A stretch of 55,405 nt of DNA from Herpetosiphonaceae bacterium (GTDB taxonomy: Bacteria; Chloroflexota; Chloroflexia; Chloroflexales; Kallotenuaceae): the NCBI GenBank assembly GCA_013821605.1, contig JACDGP010000002.1, forward strand, positions 46,645 to 102,049, in the 5' to 3' direction. The notes beneath the pieces were generated by a model. The model searched no databases. It saw only the letters and a program-made list of their open reading frames with translations, and was not told where the DNA came from. The position numbers and the translations under genes were made by a program. Shown piece by piece: positions 1-46,923 of the stretch (position 1 is its first letter; every line of letters starts with the position of its first letter).

Positions 1-1953
1 CAGCTGCACCAGGCCCCACATAAAGGGTGCGACGATCACGAGCATGATTGTGAATACCACGAATTCTGCAAACAATGGATGCTGGTCGATGAACCATAAC
101 AAAAAGCCGTAGAGCGCGACGGTCCCAAGGAGCAGGCTAGTAATGAGTCCAACCCGTTGCCAGTCTTGAATGCCGGACTGTTCTTGTGGCCGGTAAATAT
201 CTTCGAGCCAGGCTTGTGGCTCGTTCGGCACGAAGCTGTACTTCCCCTCAAAAATCATATCGCCAATGTTACCAAGCACCTGGAGGTTGCGAATATAGCC
301 CGTATGACTACCGGCCGGGTTCGGCCAACGATATGAGGCAATGCGGACGTTATCAACGCGTTGTCGCCGGATATCGATATGCTCACCCACAATCGTATGC
401 AGCGGTCCGCTGATCGCATCCCCCTGGTCCCAGTAATTGACCCAATGGACATGCGGCTCGTTGCTATAGCTAAAGGGCACCGTACTGAGATCCCCCCGCA
501 GATCGCTAACCACCTGCAGGTAGATCGGGATCTTGGAGTGCATTGTGGCGAAAAAGTATTCCACCTTGTTGATGGGGCTGCCCATCGTCACGAAATGGGT
601 CAGCTTGGCCAACATCTGGCTAGTATCATCCGTAAGGCTAGCTCCGGCCATCAAGCGTTGGGGACGATGCAATCCGAGTATTGTGTCTAGCGCAATCACC
701 GTTCCAAGGCTGTGGGCAACCACGACGATGCGCTTACAGTGTACGTCGCGTAACATGTGCCGCATGACTGCCATCGTGTTTTGCAGAATGGCTTGCTTAT
801 GTTGGTACTTGACATCGGTCTCTTGATAGGTGACGTATTGTTGCACATCACCTAAATGATCGCGCAGCGGCTTGAGCAAGATTGCCACTAAACCGGCAGC
901 GGCTACGGCGGCCAACGATGCTTTGGCACGTAACAGAAAGCCCACTACCTGTGCCAGTACACTTCTGGCAACTTCCAGAGTCGCCCTCAGCCGCCCTAGC
1001 ACGGTTGCAGGAACCGGCACGCCCTGAGCACTCCGAGGAGGTGGCGTTTGTGTCGCTACGACGATCTGCTGTGCGATGAAGCGGATCAAGACGTGGAATG
1101 GGCCGGATAAGAGGACACTAAGGCCACCTACCGCTAATGCCAATAAGCCGAACAAGCCCAAGATCATCACGAGGGTGGTGCCCAAGTAGCGCCACTGCTG
1201 CTGGATATGCGTCCGGTGCCAATGTATGGCCCAGGCTTTGACTTGAGGTGCTGATAATGGAACGGGAGCTCCACGCACTACCTGCGGCGGATGCTCTTCG
1301 AGATACAACAAGAATTCATCGAATGTTCCGCGTGGATAGCGTGGATCGCTATATGTTTCCGGCTGCCCAAAGCCGCGGTAACAATCCATCAGATGTTGCA
1401 GGACTTGTACCGACCGGCGCTCGCGCTGGGATAATTGCTCCTCTTGGCGCTCATACCGTTGCTCAAAAATACCATACAACGTCGCCAGCCGTAGTGCTTG
1501 CATCTCACGCCAAGGTGCCTGCAATACGGCAAAAGGTCGTAGCCATTGCCGAGTGACCCATAACACTACTGAGACAGCATTGGTGCCACCGACGGCCAGT
1601 GGCGCCCAATACGCTTCATAAAATCGGATGCGCGGTGTAGGCTGGAGGGCATCCTGTATCATCATCGGCCCGACCTGCGGATTGCGAACCTCTTGATAAA
1701 CGACCGTCTGCGGCTCACTCGGATCACTACCAGGCTCTTCGTAAACATGGTGATCCAGCAAGTGGGGTTCGGGATAGCGCGCCGGATCGGCCTGGTGCCG
1801 GCTGCCAATGAGCATATCAAGCTGCTGAACGAGGCTGCTGACTGCTTCATGCCGGCGCTGCTGGCCCATGCCGTGGAAATAGACCACCGCCGTATAATCC
1901 TCGGTGTCGGGTATTCCCATCCCCTTTGGCACCAGCCTAGTGTTGCCCCTCAT
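1..1953 (-). CDS. Membrane-anchored alpha/beta-hydrolase-like protein, 3' end cut by window edge
   Basis: The frame stays open from an ATG at 1953 to the left edge (651 codons, no stop), so the C-terminus is missing. GGAGG lies 10 bases before the ATG. The N-terminus has a hydrolase-type strand followed by an HGMGQ motif (about residues 22-31). A nucleophile elbow AHSLG puts the likely catalytic serine at about residue 415. Hydrophobic segments at about 258-284 and 345-360, and again near the truncated end, suggest membrane anchoring with the hydrolase core between them. The start overlaps the stop of the upstream ybaK-like gene as ATGA, so translation is probably coupled. The substrate is unknown; lipase or esterase activity is only an inference from the fold. 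Confidence 0.75.
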   Translation of the reverse strand, partial: MRGNTRLVPKGMGIPDTEDYTAVVYFHGMGQQRRHEAVSSLVQQLDMLIGSRHQADPARYPEPHLLDHHVYEEPGSDPSEPQTVVYQEVRNPQVGPMMIQDALQPTPRIRFYEAYWAPLAVGGTNAVSVVLWVTRQWLRPFAVLQAPWREMQALRLATLYGIFEQRYERQEEQLSQRERRSVQVLQHLMDCYRGFGQPETYSDPRYPRGTFDEFLLYLEEHPPQVVRGAPVPLSAPQVKAWAIHWHRTHIQQQWRYLGTTLVMILGLFGLLALAVGGLSVLLSGPFHVLIRFIAQQIVVATQTPPPRSAQGVPVPATVLGRLRATLEVARSVLAQVVGFLLRAKASLAAVAAAGLVAILLKPLRDHLGDVQQYVTYQETDVKYQHKQAILQNTMAVMRHMLRDVHCKRIVVVAHSLGTVIALDTILGLHRPQRLMAGASLTDDTSQMLAKLTHFVTMGSPINKVEYFFATMHSKIPIYLQVVSDLRGDLSTVPFSYSNEPHVHWVNYWDQGDAISGPLHTIVGEHIDIRRQRVDNVRIASYRWPNPAGSHTGYIRNLQVLGNIGDMIFEGKYSFVPNEPQAWLEDIYRPQEQSGIQDWQRVGLITSLLLGTVALYGFLLWFIDQHPLFAEFVVFTIMLVIVAPFMWGLVQL

Positions 1954-16930: not shown

Positions 16931-17647
16931 TCACGACTCATCTGATCTCGTTCCCGTTCCAAGTGCCTGTGTTATCAACCCTTGTGCAAGCGCATCAAGA
17001 TAGCGCCGGATGGCGACATCATAATAATCAATGGCGCAAACGCCCTTATATCCTGCGTACGTAGATGACTTACCCTCAGTACGAGCATCTACGTAAACTC
17101 GTAGGCACCGTTGAATGCGGGTTACACTGACCCAGTATTGACTAATCTCATCAAGATCTTGGTCAGCCCGAGTAAAAATAGTGATGCGAAACTTAGCCTC
17201 GTCAATTCCAAAGCTAGTTCGGAGCAAGTACAACCAGTAGCGAATGATATTCTCATTACTGTTGGCAAATCTGAATGTATCCTTACCTTTGCTTTCCTCG
17301 CCAAGGTACAACATCGCCGCCGCAATATGGTTCGCATGATGCTGCTGTTCCAGTGTCGCCAGGAGCGCTTCGGCCTTTTGCCGCTCTGCCTCGATCCGGG
17401 CTAAGCGTGCCGCCTTGTTTTTTTCTGCGGCTATATTACGTGCGCCTTTGGCAAATCCTACATCCCGCCGCTTTTCAGCTATGCGGGCTTGTTGTTCCAT
17501 CGTGAGCTTTATGCCTTGTACCCAACCGAGCAACGTATTACGAGGCGGACCAAGCTTCACAGAGATTTCAGTTAACGAAAAGCCTTCTCGCCGCAAACGC
17601 CGTGCTTCCTCACGTAGCTCTTCTGAGTAATAAGTGCCGCGTGGCAT
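16931..17647 (-). CDS. HTH protein with LAGLIDADG-like C-terminal domain
   Basis: 238 residues from an ATG with AGAGG seven bases upstream; the first 14 codons of the longer frame add nothing recognisable. An N-terminal helix-turn-helix (about 5-45, EEARRLRREGFSLTEISVKL) is followed by a basic helix. The C-terminal domain (about 110-225) has LYLGEESKGKDTFRFANSN, IIRYWLYLLRTSFG, and a late GVCAIDYYDVAIRRYLDAL. This pattern is common in actinobacterial and Chloroflexota hypotheticals. It recalls the WhiA/homing-endonuclease fold, without an obvious nuclease site, so a DNA-binding regulator is the likelier role. It sits between tRNA-Val and the thrS operon. Confidence 0.6.
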   Translation of the reverse strand: MPRGTYYSEELREEARRLRREGFSLTEISVKLGPPRNTLLGWVQGIKLTMEQQARIAEKRRDVGFAKGARNIAAEKNKAARLARIEAERQKAEALLATLEQQHHANHIAAAMLYLGEESKGKDTFRFANSNENIIRYWLYLLRTSFGIDEAKFRITIFTRADQDLDEISQYWVSVTRIQRCLRVYVDARTEGKSSTYAGYKGVCAIDYYDVAIRRYLDALAQGLITQALGTGTRSDES

Positions 17648-17704
17648 AGAGCAACCTCTAGTGATGGTAGACAGGGGCAGTGTTCCCAAATGCTGTAAGA
17701 ATCA

Positions 17705-19904: not shown

Positions 19905-22900
19905 ATGTCGATACCGGAGAGCGCCCAACGTGCTCGCACACGCTACGCAGCCGCGCTCTACCGTAGTGCCTTGCTGCGGGATCCCCATCCAGCCCGCGCA
20001 GGACGTGCCGTCATTACCGCTTTTGGGGCTATCACGTGGGATAACGTCCTCCTTGATGACCAGCTGGAAGCACGGCTCGTCGCCAACTTCCCACCGCTAC
20101 CGCGCTTCCAGCAGCGCCCATCACAGTCACCGGTTAACCTGCCGGCCACTTTTTGCGCACTTTCGCCCAGTACACGTCTCGCACTTGGGCTACGTATTGT
20201 GCGGGGCATGGCTACTCCTCTGATTGCCCAGGCCCTCTGGCTAGCCCTGCCCGAAGCACAAACCCTCCTCATTGAAGGGGGGCGGGCGATGAGTGGTGCT
20301 ACTGACACCCTGGGAGGAGCATGCCGGAGTTGCTGGAGTGGCCGCCTTGATGATCCGAATGCTGGCCGCAGCCACATGCTGACCTGCTCTACCTGCCGTG
20401 TCGCCATTCCCCGCTGGGAGCAAGCCGAACGAACCCTCAGTGAGCATCTAGGGCGAGCGCTAGGCAGTCTCTCTCTACCCCCTGCCATTGATGAAGCGCT
20501 CACCGCGAGTCTTGACCCAAGCACCCATACCGGCCATACGCTGCTCTGGCATCGGCCTGCCGTCTTGCAAAGCGTGCTGGTACTTTGCACACTGCTCACA
20601 CTTCTGCTGCTGTTCTGGCCATGGAGGACCGACAAGCTCTCAGCTACGGCCTCGGCAGCATTACCGCCCGCCGCTATTGTCGCAGCTGCGCGCAACACAT
20701 ATGCCGCCGTTCCCCAGGTTTCTGGCTTTCTCCATCGACGCTGGGCGATCACACTCGGCCAGCCCCAGCTCAATTTTCAAGCCGATGAGTGGGTCGACCC
20801 CGCACATCCCGAGCGCCACCGCATGCAACTCGTGGCTGACCGCAGGGTCGCCGAGTGGGAAGTGGGCGATGGTCAAGACCACTTGCTCTATATGAGCAAC
20901 CTAGTGCCCTACTTCTGTGGAGCTTCTCCCATCGGCGTCCAAAGTCATACCAACGAGCGGAATAGTTGGACCATGGGCCCCACTCAACAAGCTGCGATAC
21001 GTACCGTTCGCTGGCACCATGGACCGTGGGCCACCGGTCTCCATTATCTGGATCTCGCTGCCACGGCTGATACCCTCCGCTCGTTGGGCATCGCTGGCAG
21101 CGGCTCCGCTGCCACCCTTACCCTCTCTGCTGAAGGGCGTGCCATCAGCGGCACATTACTTCTACGCTTCGACCCCGTGAGCCATGCGCTCCGCGAAGTC
21201 CGCGAGTTGCAGCACAACAATGGTCAGACCGAAGAACGCGTTCCATGGCAACTAAGGAGCACTGAGACGCTTGACGAGCAAACTGTCGCTCCACATGATC
21301 TGCTCACCTCCTATCCTGACGACAACCAGCCTCCGCTCGTTGAGCGCACCTCGCCTATCATCGATGATGGTTGTCCGCTTACCGGCTCTGAACAAACGCA
21401 AAGTTTGCCCCGCCTTCTGATGATGCCGAACCTGGGTCCGCTCATTGGACTATCAGCCCTGCCCACCGGCCTGAACCAGGCGCTCGTCGTCGGCCCACCT
21501 GATCCAGCTGCTCCAAATGGCTTTAACCAGCAGTTTCGACTCGAAATCAACAACCTGCACGTTGTCTACATTGGATCTGCCAAACGGCTCGTGCTTGTCC
21601 CGGAAGCTCCGCCCATTGCCGGCGATCATCTCGTCGCGGCCGGTCCTTGGCGTGTTCATTTCTTTCCACCGGAAGTGCCAACCGTCTTAACAGCCGTTCT
21701 TCAACCTGCTGCCATAGGGAATGAACAGTTCCATAATGGGAGCAGCCGGGGCAATTATGTGCGCGTACTGGCCGAAGGCTGGACCCGCGATGAACTGCTC
21801 GCTGTCCTCGCCACTGCCCGACCCTTGCGTGTTGATGACTGGGCGAATGCTCCTGATCGCTTCTACGCAACTGCGTCACTCCCAGCAGCCGTGCAAGCCC
21901 ATCTGCTGACTCTGTTTGCAGCCTCCCGCATCACTCCTGGTCAAAGTCATCATCTGGTCGTGGTGGAAACGACGCGTCAGGCTCCGTTCTTTGCCGGTCT
22001 CGCCGACCCGTATCACACGCCTGCCGCACTCTGGCCTGCCGAACGGCGCCAGGAGAGTTGGATCGCCTATGGCAAAGGCGGCCGCGAGGCGCGTGCCCTC
22101 CGCTTGACGAGCGACATGATGGGCCATGTGGTGGCGGCGCAATGGCACGATGAGCAGACATGGCGTAGCTATGATGCTGCGAGTACCACCGTCATCGCCC
22201 AGCCATATCGCGCTGGCGCGCAGCGTGTCGGCGATGCCGTTCTGCCGCTCGCTGCTGCCTGGCAGTGGCAGTGGCATACCTTAGACGATGGCAGCGCTGT
22301 GGCCGAACAACTCCAACCACTGGAAGCCTTGCCGGGGAATGCCGGCCTCGCCAGCAGCGAGGTCGTGTACCTGGACAACTGGACCAACGACTTGGCCACC
22401 GACAGCGCACTTGGTCGGGCCTTCTTTGACAGGCAGGGACACCTTCGGGGTCGGGAAACACTAGCGATCCTGAAAGCAGCCACTTCTGGTACGGAAAACC
22501 ATCTAGGCGTGACTGCGACAACGCCTGTAACCTCGACGGTCATGATCAATCGGGCTGTCATCGAGCAAGACGAATGGTTACCATCAATTCCGGCAAGTAC
22601 CTTCGAATGGACTCTCCCTCCGGGCACCAAGGAGGCTTCCGCCGACAATTTGCTAACCTTCTACCCCTACTTCAATGATCCGCCCGTTAAGGTGCGCAAC
22701 ATCACCGACGCAGCGGCCACGATGCCCTTTACGGTCTGGGACTGGGGACCCACCTGGACGCCTCTAGAGGAAGCACCCGCTTTGAGCGGAATCCTGCAAC
22801 AACCACCCCATACTGGCCAATCGCCGCCGGTCATGCGCGGAACGATCGGCAGTGCCGTTAGTCTGGGGGTGGCCATTGATGCTCATTATGTGCTCGATAA

Positions 22901-23204
22901 CCGCTCTGTTGATCTGCTCCAAGGACCGGCTTCACTGCTACGCCAGCTCCTTCAACAAACTGCGCCCGCGTGGATATCTGCCGAGCAGCGTGTCGTCATG
23001 ATCAATACACAGCCCCGGACGGTGTGGCTGATGCGTGGTACAACCCAAAAAAGTGGTATCAATATCTATTATAACCGGTGGATTGTTTTCGAGATGGATG
23101 GAACCTTATTTTTTCTTCGTGCCGATGTGCAAGATGCGGATCTTGATAAAATTGTTCAACACCTTGACGGGTTGCGACAGGTAGTCCCGCAGCGCCAGCC
23201 GTAA
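19905..23204 (+). CDS. Large membrane protein: sigma-like N-terminus, ZAS zinc motif, one TM, duplicated exported domain (copy 1)
   Basis: 1099 residues. Residues 10-50 resemble ECF sigma region 2 (YAAALYRSALL... AVITAF). Residues 87-128 resemble region 4 with a helix-turn-helix (LSPSTRLALGLRIVRGM... IAQAL). No clear region 2.4 lies between. Then come CRSC (140-143) and HMLTCSTC (157-164), the HxxxCxxC motif of zinc-binding anti-sigma factors; a helix at 219-238; and about 860 exported residues. The exported part looks like two rounds of a LolA/RseB-like unit plus a DUF4367-like unit. A weak GAGG precedes the ATG. The next gene is a collinear paralogue 17 bases away. I infer a sensor in which sigma-like and anti-sigma-like parts share one chain; the function is unproven. 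Confidence 0.7.
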   Translation: MSIPESAQRARTRYAAALYRSALLRDPHPARAGRAVITAFGAITWDNVLLDDQLEARLVANFPPLPRFQQRPSQSPVNLPATFCALSPSTRLALGLRIVRGMATPLIAQALWLALPEAQTLLIEGGRAMSGATDTLGGACRSCWSGRLDDPNAGRSHMLTCSTCRVAIPRWEQAERTLSEHLGRALGSLSLPPAIDEALTASLDPSTHTGHTLLWHRPAVLQSVLVLCTLLTLLLLFWPWRTDKLSATASAALPPAAIVAAARNTYAAVPQVSGFLHRRWAITLGQPQLNFQADEWVDPAHPERHRMQLVADRRVAEWEVGDGQDHLLYMSNLVPYFCGASPIGVQSHTNERNSWTMGPTQQAAIRTVRWHHGPWATGLHYLDLAATADTLRSLGIAGSGSAATLTLSAEGRAISGTLLLRFDPVSHALREVRELQHNNGQTEERVPWQLRSTETLDEQTVAPHDLLTSYPDDNQPPLVERTSPIIDDGCPLTGSEQTQSLPRLLMMPNLGPLIGLSALPTGLNQALVVGPPDPAAPNGFNQQFRLEINNLHVVYIGSAKRLVLVPEAPPIAGDHLVAAGPWRVHFFPPEVPTVLTAVLQPAAIGNEQFHNGSSRGNYVRVLAEGWTRDELLAVLATARPLRVDDWANAPDRFYATASLPAAVQAHLLTLFAASRITPGQSHHLVVVETTRQAPFFAGLADPYHTPAALWPAERRQESWIAYGKGGREARALRLTSDMMGHVVAAQWHDEQTWRSYDAASTTVIAQPYRAGAQRVGDAVLPLAAAWQWQWHTLDDGSAVAEQLQPLEALPGNAGLASSEVVYLDNWTNDLATDSALGRAFFDRQGHLRGRETLAILKAATSGTENHLGVTATTPVTSTVMINRAVIEQDEWLPSIPASTFEWTLPPGTKEASADNLLTFYPYFNDPPVKVRNITDAAATMPFTVWDWGPTWTPLEEAPALSGILQQPPHTGQSPPVMRGTIGSAVSLGVAIDAHYVLDNRSVDLLQGPASLLRQLLQQTAPAWISAEQRVVMINTQPRTVWLMRGTTQKSGINIYYNRWIVFEMDGTLFFLRADVQDADLDKIVQHLDGLRQVVPQRQP

Positions 23205-23221
23205 ACCAGAAACGAGAGGAT

Positions 23222-26200
23222 ATGTCCATTCCCCAAAATGCCGACCGCGCTCGCAACCGCTATGCTGCTGTTCTGTATCGCAGTGCTCTCCTACGTGACC
23301 CTGATGCTACGCGTGCTGGTCAGGCCATAATCACAGCTTGGAGCCACCTCGACTGGGATATCCTGCCGCTCGATGACCAGATCGAGTTGCGTTTGATCGC
23401 TGCATTACCACCTATCCCGCGTTTCCGTTGGAAGCGCCGAGCTTCGTTTGCCCCCATCCCTGCTAGTTTTTGGACATTGTCACCCCCGACACGGCTTGCT
23501 CTTGGTCTGCGCCTTCTGCGCGGTATGGGTAGCCCTGCAATTGCTCGTGCCCTGAATCTATCTTTACTCGAGACCCAAAATCTCCTTCTTGATGGACTGC
23601 TCCGCAGCAGCGGCATCACCTGTAGCAGCGACCTAGAGTGCCGACATTGTATGCTCGCACGTCTTGATGACGCCTCCGGCGAACGAGCGCATCTGCTCAA
23701 CTGCGCGCACTGTCGCGAAACTATCCCGCAGCTCGAACGCTATGAAGCTGAACTTGCTCAGCAGCTTGGTCGTGCTGTTGGCAGCATCGGATTACCACAC
23801 GCCGTTGATGATGCTCTGGTCGCCACCTTTCGCACAACAGGGAGCGGCAAGCGCGGTGAGGCTCCACTGTGGCAGCGACCATTCGTCTGGCAGGTAACAA
23901 CCGTCGGTCTCGTGGTACTGGGACTGGCGCTCCTCTTTAGGTCGCATACAAATCGACCGGCTGTAAGTGTAATGCTGGGTGACCGCGTTGCGTCAGCCAA
24001 AGTGATCATCGATGATGCTCGTCGCCAATACGATACAGTTCCCGTCGTGTCAGGTATCCTCCATCGCCGCTGGGCCATCAACCTTGATCGACCCCAGCTT
24101 AGCTTACAGGCTGATGAATGGGTCGATCCACAACAGCCTGGCCGCCATCGCATGCAATTGATGACTGATCAAAATACTCGAGAATGGCAGGTTGGTGATG
24201 GCGCTGAGGAACTCCGCTACGTTAGCAGCCTTGCGCCATGGTTCTGTGGCATAGTGCCACCTGGTGTTGATATCCATAATAGCCAACAAAATATCTGGCA
24301 TATTGCGGCGCAAGAACAGGCTGAGATGCGGCAAGCACGCTGGCATCATGGGCCTTGGGCAATTGGTCTCCAATATCTCGACCTCGCGGCGGCCGGCCAA
24401 CTACGATCACTCGGTACAGCCGGTGATGGCAGTGATGCGGCCCTGACGATTTCTGCCGAAGGACCCGCGATTGATGGCACGCTGTTATTGCGCTTCGACC
24501 CCGTATCCCATGCCTTGAAAGAAGTCCGGCAACTTCGCACCAACAACGGCCAAACCGAAGAGCGCGTGCCCTGGCGCCTCGTGCTCAATGCAACAATTGA
24601 TCGCGATCAGGCACAGCAAACTGGCATCCTCATTCGCTATCCCGGTGATGCACTACCGGACAGCGTGCAGCGGGCGCTACCGATCATCGACCGTGCCTGT
24701 CCCTTGACTGGGCCTGAACAAGCCCAAAGCCTTCCACGCCTCCTTGCCAGCCAAGGTCAAGCATCTGGACAACTCTGGGGTCTACCTACGCTGCCACTCG
24801 GCATAGACCGCGCCATGATTATTGGCCCGGGCGACCCTGCTAATCCGGGCAACCATGGCGGACCCGGTGCCTCCGATCTTAATACCATGCGCATCGTCTA
24901 TATTGGTGCTACGAAGCGCCTTGTTCTCATGCCGGGTGGACAACAGTTTGGGATCAACCAGCCAGCCCAAACTGGTCCATGGCAAATATCGTTCTTCCCC
25001 TCAGGGATGCCGACAATACTACGCGGGACCTTGCAACACACTTCAACGGTCCAGCTAGGGCGCGGCTTTGGGCAACGCAACGGCATACGTGTGCAAGCCG
25101 AAGGCTGGACCAAAGAAGAGTTACTCCCGTTGCTGGCAAGCGTGCGTCCTCTAAGCTTGGAGGACTGGGCTCGCTCTCCTGACCGCTTCTACGAGCCGGT
25201 TCCGCTCGATCCCACATTACGGGAGCGCCTGCTGCATATTATCAACGCCTCCCAACCACAGGCCGAACGTATCCACCATCGGGTTGTTCTAACCACGACT
25301 CGCCAGAACCCGGCCGAAGTTACTTTAACCGATCCCTACCATCTGCCGACTGGCAAATGGCCTCCCGTCCGGCGTGTCGAAAGTTGGAGTGAAGTGGATC
25401 CTACGAGTGGGACGACGCTACGCTGGCGCGAGGTGTCGACCGACACACAGGGCCGCTCGTTGACAGCTGAATGGAATGACGGGCAAGTGCTCCATAGTTA
25501 TACAGCCGTCAGCAACAGTGTCATCACGGAAACGGCATCGTCGGCCATTTCCGCACCACTCAATCCTGCCGCCGATCTCCTTCGCAATACCGATTGGCAG
25601 TGGACTACGCAGGCTGATGGCACACTTATCGCCGAGCATGCTCAGGTATTACCATGGCAAGGTTTCGACGGTTTATACCAACCATGGACGCTTGATGATT
25701 GGACAACCGATCTCGGCCTGCGCCATGGCATCGAGCGACTCATCTTTAATGCCGATGGCACTCTACAAGCGCGCGAAATTCTTGCTGCGCCGCGCACCAA
25801 TGCACAGTCTGCGCCAGTAACCACTGTTCTGGTCCATCGCGAGGTGGTCCTGCAGGACGAGTGGCTTCCCACTGCTTCCGATGCCAGCTTTACGTGGAAT
25901 GCAGATCCTGGTGCGGTCGAGATTGGTCGCTTTGCCCTGGACTCGCTTTCGACGCCACAGGCTCTCGGTCCGCAACCTCACTCGCTTGAAGAGGCAGCCG
26001 CTGCCGTACCATTTCCCATTTGGGCCTGGTCCCGTAACAACTCTACCTTTGCTGGCCCTGCTTCCAATGTTCCATCCCAATTTGCGAATGATGAACCCTT
26101 GCTAGGTCGGGCCAGTATTGAGCAAGCACTTAATTTGGGTGTCGCCGTTCAGCTACGTTACGATCTTCCGTATGGGCCATTAGAGCTGCTGGAAGGACCT

Positions 26201-26455
26201 TCCCCAGTGCTTCGACGCCTCCTCCAACAAACGGCACCCCGATGGACAACGTCCGAGCCTCGTCAAGTGACCATCCATGGCCAATCGCACGAACTCTGGA
26301 TCATGGATGGCAAGAGCAGCAATAATTCGTGGCTTGTCTTCGAGCTTGACCAAACCCTGTTTTTTATGCATTTTGGAGGGCCGCCGGCTGACGTGCAAGC
26401 TGTTATCGATCATCTCGGCGACTTGCAGGTTGTTACGCCCTCCCAACATACCTGA
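23222..26455 (+). CDS. Large membrane protein, paralogue of preceding gene (copy 2)
   Basis: 1077 residues, collinear with copy 1: sigma region 2-like 10-50, region 4-like 87-128, CRHC at 140-143, HLLNCAHC at 157-164 (identical cysteine and histidine positions) and a membrane helix at about 221-239. Long shared blocks appear in the exported part: HRRWAI, WVDP, FDPVSHAL-EVR, NNGQTEERVPW, CPLTG-EQ-QSLPRL and LLRQLLQQTAP-type ends. By eye roughly half the residues match. The linker between the region 4-like part and CRHC has diverged most. GAGAGG is close to the ATG. The pair arose by tandem duplication and probably shares a transcript with the downstream PyrK-like gene. Confidence 0.7.
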   Translation: MSIPQNADRARNRYAAVLYRSALLRDPDATRAGQAIITAWSHLDWDILPLDDQIELRLIAALPPIPRFRWKRRASFAPIPASFWTLSPPTRLALGLRLLRGMGSPAIARALNLSLLETQNLLLDGLLRSSGITCSSDLECRHCMLARLDDASGERAHLLNCAHCRETIPQLERYEAELAQQLGRAVGSIGLPHAVDDALVATFRTTGSGKRGEAPLWQRPFVWQVTTVGLVVLGLALLFRSHTNRPAVSVMLGDRVASAKVIIDDARRQYDTVPVVSGILHRRWAINLDRPQLSLQADEWVDPQQPGRHRMQLMTDQNTREWQVGDGAEELRYVSSLAPWFCGIVPPGVDIHNSQQNIWHIAAQEQAEMRQARWHHGPWAIGLQYLDLAAAGQLRSLGTAGDGSDAALTISAEGPAIDGTLLLRFDPVSHALKEVRQLRTNNGQTEERVPWRLVLNATIDRDQAQQTGILIRYPGDALPDSVQRALPIIDRACPLTGPEQAQSLPRLLASQGQASGQLWGLPTLPLGIDRAMIIGPGDPANPGNHGGPGASDLNTMRIVYIGATKRLVLMPGGQQFGINQPAQTGPWQISFFPSGMPTILRGTLQHTSTVQLGRGFGQRNGIRVQAEGWTKEELLPLLASVRPLSLEDWARSPDRFYEPVPLDPTLRERLLHIINASQPQAERIHHRVVLTTTRQNPAEVTLTDPYHLPTGKWPPVRRVESWSEVDPTSGTTLRWREVSTDTQGRSLTAEWNDGQVLHSYTAVSNSVITETASSAISAPLNPAADLLRNTDWQWTTQADGTLIAEHAQVLPWQGFDGLYQPWTLDDWTTDLGLRHGIERLIFNADGTLQAREILAAPRTNAQSAPVTTVLVHREVVLQDEWLPTASDASFTWNADPGAVEIGRFALDSLSTPQALGPQPHSLEEAAAAVPFPIWAWSRNNSTFAGPASNVPSQFANDEPLLGRASIEQALNLGVAVQLRYDLPYGPLELLEGPSPVLRRLLQQTAPRWTTSEPRQVTIHGQSHELWIMDGKSSNNSWLVFELDQTLFFMHFGGPPADVQAVIDHLGDLQVVTPSQHT

Positions 26456-46066: not shown

Positions 46067-46923
46067 GTATGACCCTCATGAGGTGTGACTGTCCAGCAGG
46101 GAAAGCGGTCCCCGTCGTGTGCAAGTGACACGTCGCCACGAATAGTGCCTTCGCCGGCTCCGGCGTAGATCCGCTCACGGATCTCGGCGTCGGCAACCTG
46201 GTCCCAGCGCGGATGAAAATGGACCACGACGGTGTTGCCGATCGCTCGCCCCGCGAGGAAGCGCCCTAATTCGACCGGATCGACGTGTGCCAGTTCGGCG
46301 ATCAGCAGATCGCAGGGCTCGACAAAGGGTGCCATCTCGTCCGACCCCTGCGGGCCATGCAGATTACCGGCGTAGACGACGCGGCAGGCCGCGAATTCGT
46401 ACACGGCGCAGTAGCTTTCCGCAGCATAGGTGCGATCACGGAGACGTGGGATTTCGGTGACGCGCTGGCTCACCCATGACAGGTGCGCGTTGGGATAGGC
46501 GCGCAGCATGCCGCCGCCTGGCAGCTCGACCAGCCCGGTCAGGGGCAGCCAGCGGATTGGGAAGCCAAGCCATTCCTCGAACAGGTAGCTGGCGTCTAGA
46601 TACGCCTTGAAAGCGGGAATGCCCTCTGCGGGTGCGAGGATGATAAGTTCGTCACGCTTCTCGAGATGCATACAGGTCTTGAGCAGTTGGATGAGGCCAG
46701 CGTGGTGATCGGCATGCATATGCGAGATGAAGATGCTGCGAATGCGGCGATGGTCATAGCCATGGCGCATTAGCAACGAACTTGCTCCATCTCCCGCATC
46801 CAAGATCAGGTGGCTCTCGCCCTCATCCGGAGTGTGCTGTGTCAGTATGATCGTTTGGCCGAAGCGATGGTGTGCCGGCAGGCCCGATGCTGTGCCGAGT
46901 GTGCAGATTTCGATGTTCGCCAC
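46042..46923 (-). CDS. MBL-fold metallohydrolase
   Basis: 293 residues from the GTG at 46923, which has AAAGG eight bases before it. Metal-binding HMHADHHAG (about 77-85), a later AGNLHG stretch, an aspartate-containing LLIAELAH, and a final VVHFHPRWD are in the order of the RNase Z/arylsulfatase-like group. The longer frame upstream crosses the likely promoter region and was not used. Overlap with the acyl-CoA synthetase suggests a linked role, perhaps thioester or ester hydrolysis, but no substrate is evident. Confidence 0.78.
   Translation of the reverse strand: MANIEICTLGTASGLPAHHRFGQTIILTQHTPDEGESHLILDAGDGASSLLMRHGYDHRRIRSIFISHMHADHHAGLIQLLKTCMHLEKRDELIILAPAEGIPAFKAYLDASYLFEEWLGFPIRWLPLTGLVELPGGGMLRAYPNAHLSWVSQRVTEIPRLRDRTYAAESYCAVYEFAACRVVYAGNLHGPQGSDEMAPFVEPCDLLIAELAHVDPVELGRFLAGRAIGNTVVVHFHPRWDQVADAEIRERIYAGAGEGTIRGDVSLAHDGDRFPCWTVTPHEGHTWQQHLPS

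Follow-up and report, generated by a model that had tools for sequence, protein, structure and literature searches.

What are the two very long genes that lie side by side in a genome segment of a Herpetosiphonaceae bacterium, and do their exported parts hold two RseB-like modules on one chain? The segment analysed here (the window; 55,405 nucleotides, positions 46,645 to 102,049 of the forward strand of contig JACDGP010000002.1, G000:C190:46645-102049 in our numbering) belongs to a genome of 5.88 Mb in 259 contigs. Both open reading frames (ORFs) are on the plus strand, P0001 (1099 aa) at 19905..23204 and P0002 (1077 aa) at 23222..26455, with a gap of 17 bases from the stop of the former to the start of the latter. 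Their products share 46% identity and one architecture: a sigma-like N-terminus, a zinc-finger segment, one transmembrane helix and exported units 1 and 2. There is little doubt that a single chain joins an extracytoplasmic function (ECF) sigma-like domain, an anti-sigma-like zinc-finger segment, one membrane helix and two extracytoplasmic modules of the RseB type. On balance, both proteins are probably one-chain envelope-stress sensors, which by analogy would work like a joined RpoE-RseA-RseB with two RseB-type modules.

The initial annotation had placed an exported region, built from two repeats of a LolA/RseB-like plus DUF4367-like unit, at 20685-26440. This span covers two ORFs and takes in the cytoplasmic N-terminus of P0002; the exported parts lie at about 20649-23201 and 23987-26452. 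Each protein has one membrane helix, the sole stretch with 19-residue windows above 1.6 (about residues 217-242 of P0001, 20553..20630, and 220-240 of P0002, 23879..23941). Behind it, P0001 carries the RseB-like unit 1 (20649..21875, a homologue of the unit 1 that was modelled for P0002) and the LolA-like plus DUF4367-like unit 2 (21891..23201, matched by the unit 2 profile), both delimited as aligned slices. The corresponding order in P0002 is a LolA-like half-barrel (about residues 256-470, 23987..24631), a small domain positioned like the second domain of RseB (481-650, 24662..25171), another LolA-like half-barrel (664-874, 25211..25843) and a DUF4367-like small domain (919-1070, 25976..26431). 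The boundary proposed near residue 660 agrees with naturally occurring one-unit relatives: all 23 aligned ones have only short unaligned tails past P0002 positions 658-681, the larger end positions of some rows being stray tail residues misplaced by the aligner. Neither protein matched any Pfam or NCBIfam model up to E 10, the MucB_RseB profile included, nor any PADLOC model up to E 1. A scan of the window proteins against PDB sequences gave no usable match, and neither unit found one when searched against the PDB as a profile.

Unit 1 is recognised by its predicted fold. The AlphaFold2 (AF2) model of P0002 residues 256-668, built with 8 sequences in the alignment, is confident (predicted local distance difference test, pLDDT, 80.5; predicted template modelling score, pTM, 0.82). 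Its best Foldseek matches are RseB 2v42 (E 4.4e-9) and MucB 6jau (2.3e-8), followed by LolA and LprG. VIA aligned it with LolA-like 4mxt (Z 12.5 over model positions 1..230), RseB 3m4w (Z 10.9, 259 aligned, root-mean-square deviation (rmsd) 5.9, positions 2..389), RseB 2v42 (Z 10.9, 274 aligned), MucB 6jau (Z 9.9) and the lipid binder LprG (Z 8 to 9). The 3m4w, 2v42 and 6jau alignments fall within positions 2..391 and extend across both RseB domains, and in the model unit 1 has the RseB-type order, with the LolA-like fold first and the small domain second. C342 and C493 go together: 12/12 rows of the window's own family have both, and 27/27 other rows with letters there lack both (three gapped rows were dropped). 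Such co-occurrence is as expected for a disulphide in an exported domain and may indicate one, though it amounts to one clade difference.

Does the second half repeat the LolA-like pattern seen in the first, as the initial annotation proposed? The profile-profile comparison of the halves gave similarity between the LolA-like parts and none between the small domains. HHalign aligned unit 1 (41 rows) with unit 2 (19 rows) at a score of 33.0, with 184 columns in register (positions 44-248 against 51-256); none of 60 column shuffles reached this score (maximum 21.8), and the reversed profile gave 12.0. As the probability reported by HHalign is only 13%, the case rests on the shuffles, the register and further evidence. 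With unit 1 taken from two-unit proteins only, the score was 38.3 (0/30 shuffles reached it); with unit 1 from one-unit proteins only it was 23.5 over 77 columns (0/30 shuffles, maximum 20.6). The LolA-like parts alone scored 32.7, which none of 60 shuffles equalled. Strands named in the annotation pair up in the alignment, WVDP with ESW and LRFDPVSHALKEVR with LIFNADGTLQARE. The supposed return of the YIG-KRLVL...EGWTRDELLAVL block as the final FEMDGTLFFLRADV...LDKIVQHL block was not confirmed: the two small domains scored 11.1, 25 of 60 shuffles were equal or better, and their similarity was rejected as unsupported.

The structural comparison for two LolA-type half-barrels gave a confident match for unit 1 and, for unit 2, a match on a poor model. 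The AF2 model of P0002 residues 650-1077 has a pLDDT of 56 and a pTM of 0.45, so that its structural matches are weak evidence by themselves. Foldseek placed RseB 2v42 first (E 1.2e-6, but a template modelling score of 0.25) and LolA 7arm next (1.3e-5). VIA matched 4mxt to the half-barrel (Z 11.3, model positions 13..246), aligned RseB with the LolA-like part only, and matched positions 317..418 to DcrB 6e8a (Z 7.0, rmsd 3.0, 85 aligned); it was run on whole models, and small domains weigh little in such searches. Taken over both units, VIA matches include LolA, LprG, LprF and LppX. An unrelated 703-aa ORF of locus L061, picked up by its length, was excluded from the structure alignments. Two RseB/LolA-type modules on one exported chain are supported: for unit 1 the fold speaks for this, for unit 2 the profile match, less strong fold matches and a homologue that stands free.

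The free relatives of unit 2 also bear on its origin. The unit-2 part of the family profile matched lipoproteins of about 390 aa from the same order (e.g., L064), in which Pfam finds DUF4367 (26.4 bits, passing the cut-off of 22.1) and LolA_like (E 7.7e-6, below cut-off). Against profile B, made from 27 such proteins, unit 2 scored 55 (E 1.2e-6, HHalign probability 91%) over 286 columns running through both domains, and none of 60 shuffles came as high (maximum 23.3). The lipoproteins differ from our proteins in being free, with a signal sequence of their own and without a sigma or zinc-finger part. A free-standing unit 2 of 433 aa, hydrophobic in an N-terminal segment, is encoded in a different class of the phylum (G413; E 1.2e-31, 391/411 positions) and has no Pfam match. 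These relatives make unit 2 a discrete module, nearer to them than to unit 1. Unit 1 was not detected with profile B (13/60 shuffles as good). The small domain of unit 2 is homologous to DUF4367 proteins within the 286-column alignment (alone, 1/60 shuffles were as good), and for that of unit 1 the link is 13 columns (score 18.5, 0/60 shuffles as good). The DUF4367 label given to both halves therefore stands for unit 2, where the profile spans both domains of the lipoproteins, and is not confirmed by sequence for unit 1, for which it holds only in the sense of a small domain where the second domain of RseB sits. The Pfam model itself (PF14285), searched through the whole genome up to E 0.1, left the window genes unmatched.

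Since unit 2 is nearer to the stand-alone lipoproteins (55) than to unit 1 (33), the wording "two repeats" may mislead, and capture of a LolA+DUF4367 lipoprotein is as possible as internal duplication. That unit 2 was born by duplication of unit 1 is conceivable but rather unlikely: the LolA-like parts of the two units are homologous and in tandem, whereas the difference in scores, the missing match between unit 1 and the lipoproteins and the free-standing unit 2 in another class speak for a separate source. A faster-changing unit 1 could, however, yield the same score pattern as capture. Two or three tandem DUF4367-type stretches per chain were also seen elsewhere in the order (L082, a 481-aa ORF at G056:C46; G005:C123:20631-21392; G004:C1147).

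How widespread is the second unit? A first contig scan with P0002 found no relative. A single-sequence search matched 6/6 genomes of the family and 15/82 of the order, and a search with a 20-row profile matched 105/158 genomes of the class. Many of the latter matches cover only model positions from about 4 to 160, often in ORFs of 200-300 aa, and are thus ordinary sigma factors. When a full-length relative is counted at E < 1e-50, the matches listed show one in at least 45 of the order's 82 genomes (6/6 in f1, the window's own family, 31/41 in f2, 0/9 in f3 and 8/26 in f4), and none was among those listed for the other 76 genomes of the class. Unit 2, scored as present when a match passes model position 760 and in some cases fragmented across contigs or interrupted by frame breaks, occurs in 14 of these 45 genomes among the matches listed (six of f1, six of f2 and two of f4), so the initial annotation was fair in calling a double sensor unusual. 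Searched through 400 genomes of the phylum, exported unit 1 matched 28, all of the same order; the match in G048 is weak and partial. One-unit proteins occur naturally, and in two of them, checked downstream in all forward frames, the second unit is absent. In one relative, G001:C4, the match covers unit 1 and continues through the LolA-like part of unit 2, the last small domain being unmatched.

The one- or two-unit trait requires at least three changes on a tree of 39 rows built from the sigma part together with unit 1. In the unit-2 tree, the window's own copies, those of the other f1 genomes and those of f2 and f4 group as vertical descent predicts. If unit 2 was gained once, it would have been lost several times, independent gains being the alternative. 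Confinement of unit 2 to the window's own lineage was considered and rejected, as it is found in three families of the order and the tree joins the f2 and f4 copies. Frameshifted or truncated genes (L020/L052, L021) and more distant relatives (L066, L068, L069, L071) were excluded from profiles and trees; frameshifted L067 was retained as a unit-2 piece.

Some features of individual loci deserve mention. Tandem pairs of these genes occur in at least two genomes, that of the window (19905-26455) and that of L058, with two adjacent full-length copies, and four other f1 genomes have two copies each on separate contigs. The host genome also contains a third copy, truncated where its contig stops (C11), and two fragments, one C-terminal on another contig (C93) and one of only 43 residues from the N-terminus (C158). 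The two-unit gene of G026 and G022 is split over frames (L020, 1249-3495 and 3468-4445 in reverse-strand coordinates; L067), which may reflect decay or assembly error. In three genomes of genus g6, the one-unit gene directly follows an ATPase gene on the same strand (L075, 4149-5120 and 5316-7355; likewise L073 and L076); we take its product to be a MoxR-like AAA ATPase. The more distant relatives L071 (707 aa), L069 (744 aa) and L068 (728 aa) are only partly similar in the exported part, and the sigma-like N-terminus is better preserved in L071 (TIGR02983, E 1.4e-7, below cut-off). Within the window, a 252-aa ORF on the minus strand (16931-17689) starts with what looks by eye like a helix-turn-helix and is possibly mobile or regulatory.

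Residues 1-130 of P0002 (23222..23611) form the cytoplasmic, degenerate ECF sigma2-sigma4 domain. HHalign aligned the family N-terminus with 17 ECF sigma factors of the host genome over 130 columns (score 69.5, E 3e-11; best of 40 shuffles 13.5). An anti-sigma-like segment follows (residues 134-205, 23621..23836), marked by C140/C143 and C161-x2-C164 in a 42-row alignment and by weak zf-HC2/antisigmaE matches in relatives. The zinc-finger anti-sigma cysteines are kept in the window proteins and in the f2 and f4 relatives, and the succession of sigma2-sigma4 homology, zinc-finger segment and transmembrane helix is that of ECF sigma/anti-sigma fusions.

Several results weigh against the one-chain sensor. 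Besides the unmatched small domains and the low confidence of the unit 2 model, they concern mainly the cytoplasmic part. One recognition-helix arginine found in 13/17 ECF sigma factors is kept in 2/39 family rows, another (10/17) in 0/39; the acidic/Q signature of region 2.2 is lost at the aligned family positions; and an ECF profile search of the host genome did not return the window genes. The profile miss and the lost residues make transcription as an output doubtful. All zinc-ligand cysteines are gone in 6/12 f1 proteins, and no sigma or anti-sigma genes were seen beside family members in the loci inspected. The lost recognition-helix and region 2.2 residues render it unlikely that the chain is a canonical tethered sigma factor with a still active ECF N-terminus, which would bind RNA polymerase once freed by proteolysis, as in IutY and as proposed for ECF48/52/53. 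Such a reading would account for the homology across 130 columns; fused sigma factors activated by regulated intramembrane proteolysis (RIP) exist (PMC8999054), and L071, which lies outside the main family, has the better sigma-profile score given above.

How does this chain compare with known systems? In RseB/MucB of E. coli and P. aeruginosa, a LolA-like domain precedes a small one as it does here, the alignment with unit 1 takes in both, and the location is likewise outside the membrane beside an anti-sigma-like transmembrane segment. RseB is, however, a separate periplasmic protein, whereas here it is a covalent part of the sigma/anti-sigma chain, encoded by one ORF, and doubled; the three separate proteins of E. 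coli (sigma, anti-sigma and RseB) are apparently fused, with the sensor duplicated in number. The LolA carrier shares the half-barrel fold (4mxt, Z 12.5 for unit 1 and 11.3 for unit 2) but is free and soluble in the periplasm, whereas these modules lie behind a membrane helix in a chain of 1077-1099 aa. ECF48, ECF52, ECF53 (SCO4117) and IutY (ECF243) unite sigma, zinc-finger/anti-sigma segment, transmembrane helix and extracytoplasmic part in one chain (PMC8999054, PMC5826349). Their extracytoplasmic parts are described as proline-rich/carbohydrate-binding or siderophore-signalling rather than RseB-type, the hosts are Actinobacteria or Pseudomonas, and the sigma domain is functional, unlike the degenerate one here. 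SsdC (YdcC) of B. subtilis is a membrane-anchored RseB-like domain facing outside, described without a sigma part and with a role in spore shape (PMC7769602). Both the sigma/anti-sigma fusion and, in SsdC (PMC7769602), the RseB-like domain on a membrane anchor are therefore already known. An RseB-type sensor on a sigma/anti-sigma fusion, single or doubled, was not found in the open-access literature searched. Open-access searches on DUF4367 with LolA, DUF4367 with anti-sigma factors and sigma factors of Chloroflexus aurantiacus likewise gave no such chain. To our knowledge, the way in which RseB-type domains relay a lipid signal from the envelope to anti-sigma factors is known from separate proteins only.

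What could the chain do? The hydrophobic cavity of MucB senses lipid and controls cleavage of MucA (PMC7400510), RseB protects RseA from being cleaved until it is itself released by a lipid signal, after which RIP of RseA follows (PMC8103513), and the fusion IutY undergoes RIP by Prc and RseP (PMC8999054). With RseB/MucB under lipid control and sigma/anti-sigma fusions activated by RIP, the best reading of the chain is an envelope sensor in one piece whose RseB-type head is doubled. The sensor role of the exported units is one that we infer from fold and architecture, and a signalling mechanism of lipid sensing plus proteolysis is plausible, though short of probable. The half-barrels would have an acyl ligand from the envelope, be it a lipid, a lipoprotein or another compound, and its binding or loss would alter how the modules shield the membrane-proximal stretch. 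A site-1 protease might then cut this stretch and an RseP-type site-2 protease cut inside the membrane; the host genome encodes an RseP-family protease (206.9 bits, cut-off 147.55). The sigma/zinc-finger fragment would thereby be set free in the cytoplasm. As its sigma domain is without the usual polymerase- and DNA-contact residues, the output is more likely indirect, and the fragment would target another sigma or anti-sigma factor instead of serving as an ordinary sigma factor itself. With two modules, one chain could read two ligands, or two events may be needed before firing. The fullest version, a whole sigma-E-type pathway in one polypeptide of this Chloroflexota order with a two-input lipid/lipoprotein gate, a second module that was probably acquired from a LolA+DUF4367 lipoprotein and repeatedly lost in relatives, and a pseudo-sigma output onto other sigma/anti-sigma factors, is offered tentatively and seems to us rather doubtful as a whole.

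A membrane-anchored carrier, whose half-barrels shuttle or hold lipids or lipoproteins like LolA, LprG and LppX and whose cytoplasmic part is a leftover anchor, is improbable. It would fit the VIA matches to LolA, LprG, LprF and LppX, the homology of unit 2 to free lipoproteins and the eroded zinc ligands and sigma contacts; however, RseB tops the Foldseek matches of both units, and the sigma-like and membrane parts stay with unit 1 in one-unit and two-unit proteins alike, which is hard to explain for a dead anchor. Least credible, indeed very improbable, is a chance resemblance between the two units, for which the small domains that do not match on their own and the low confidence of the unit 2 model might be adduced, as the shuffle test contradicts it and both units match the same PDB families.

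If the one-chain sensor is what these proteins are, sensor and sigma/anti-sigma parts are inseparable in a natural chain, which suggests that signalling has possible modes besides the release of a free RseB. The one-unit and two-unit relatives constitute a natural comparison for the contribution of the second sensor.

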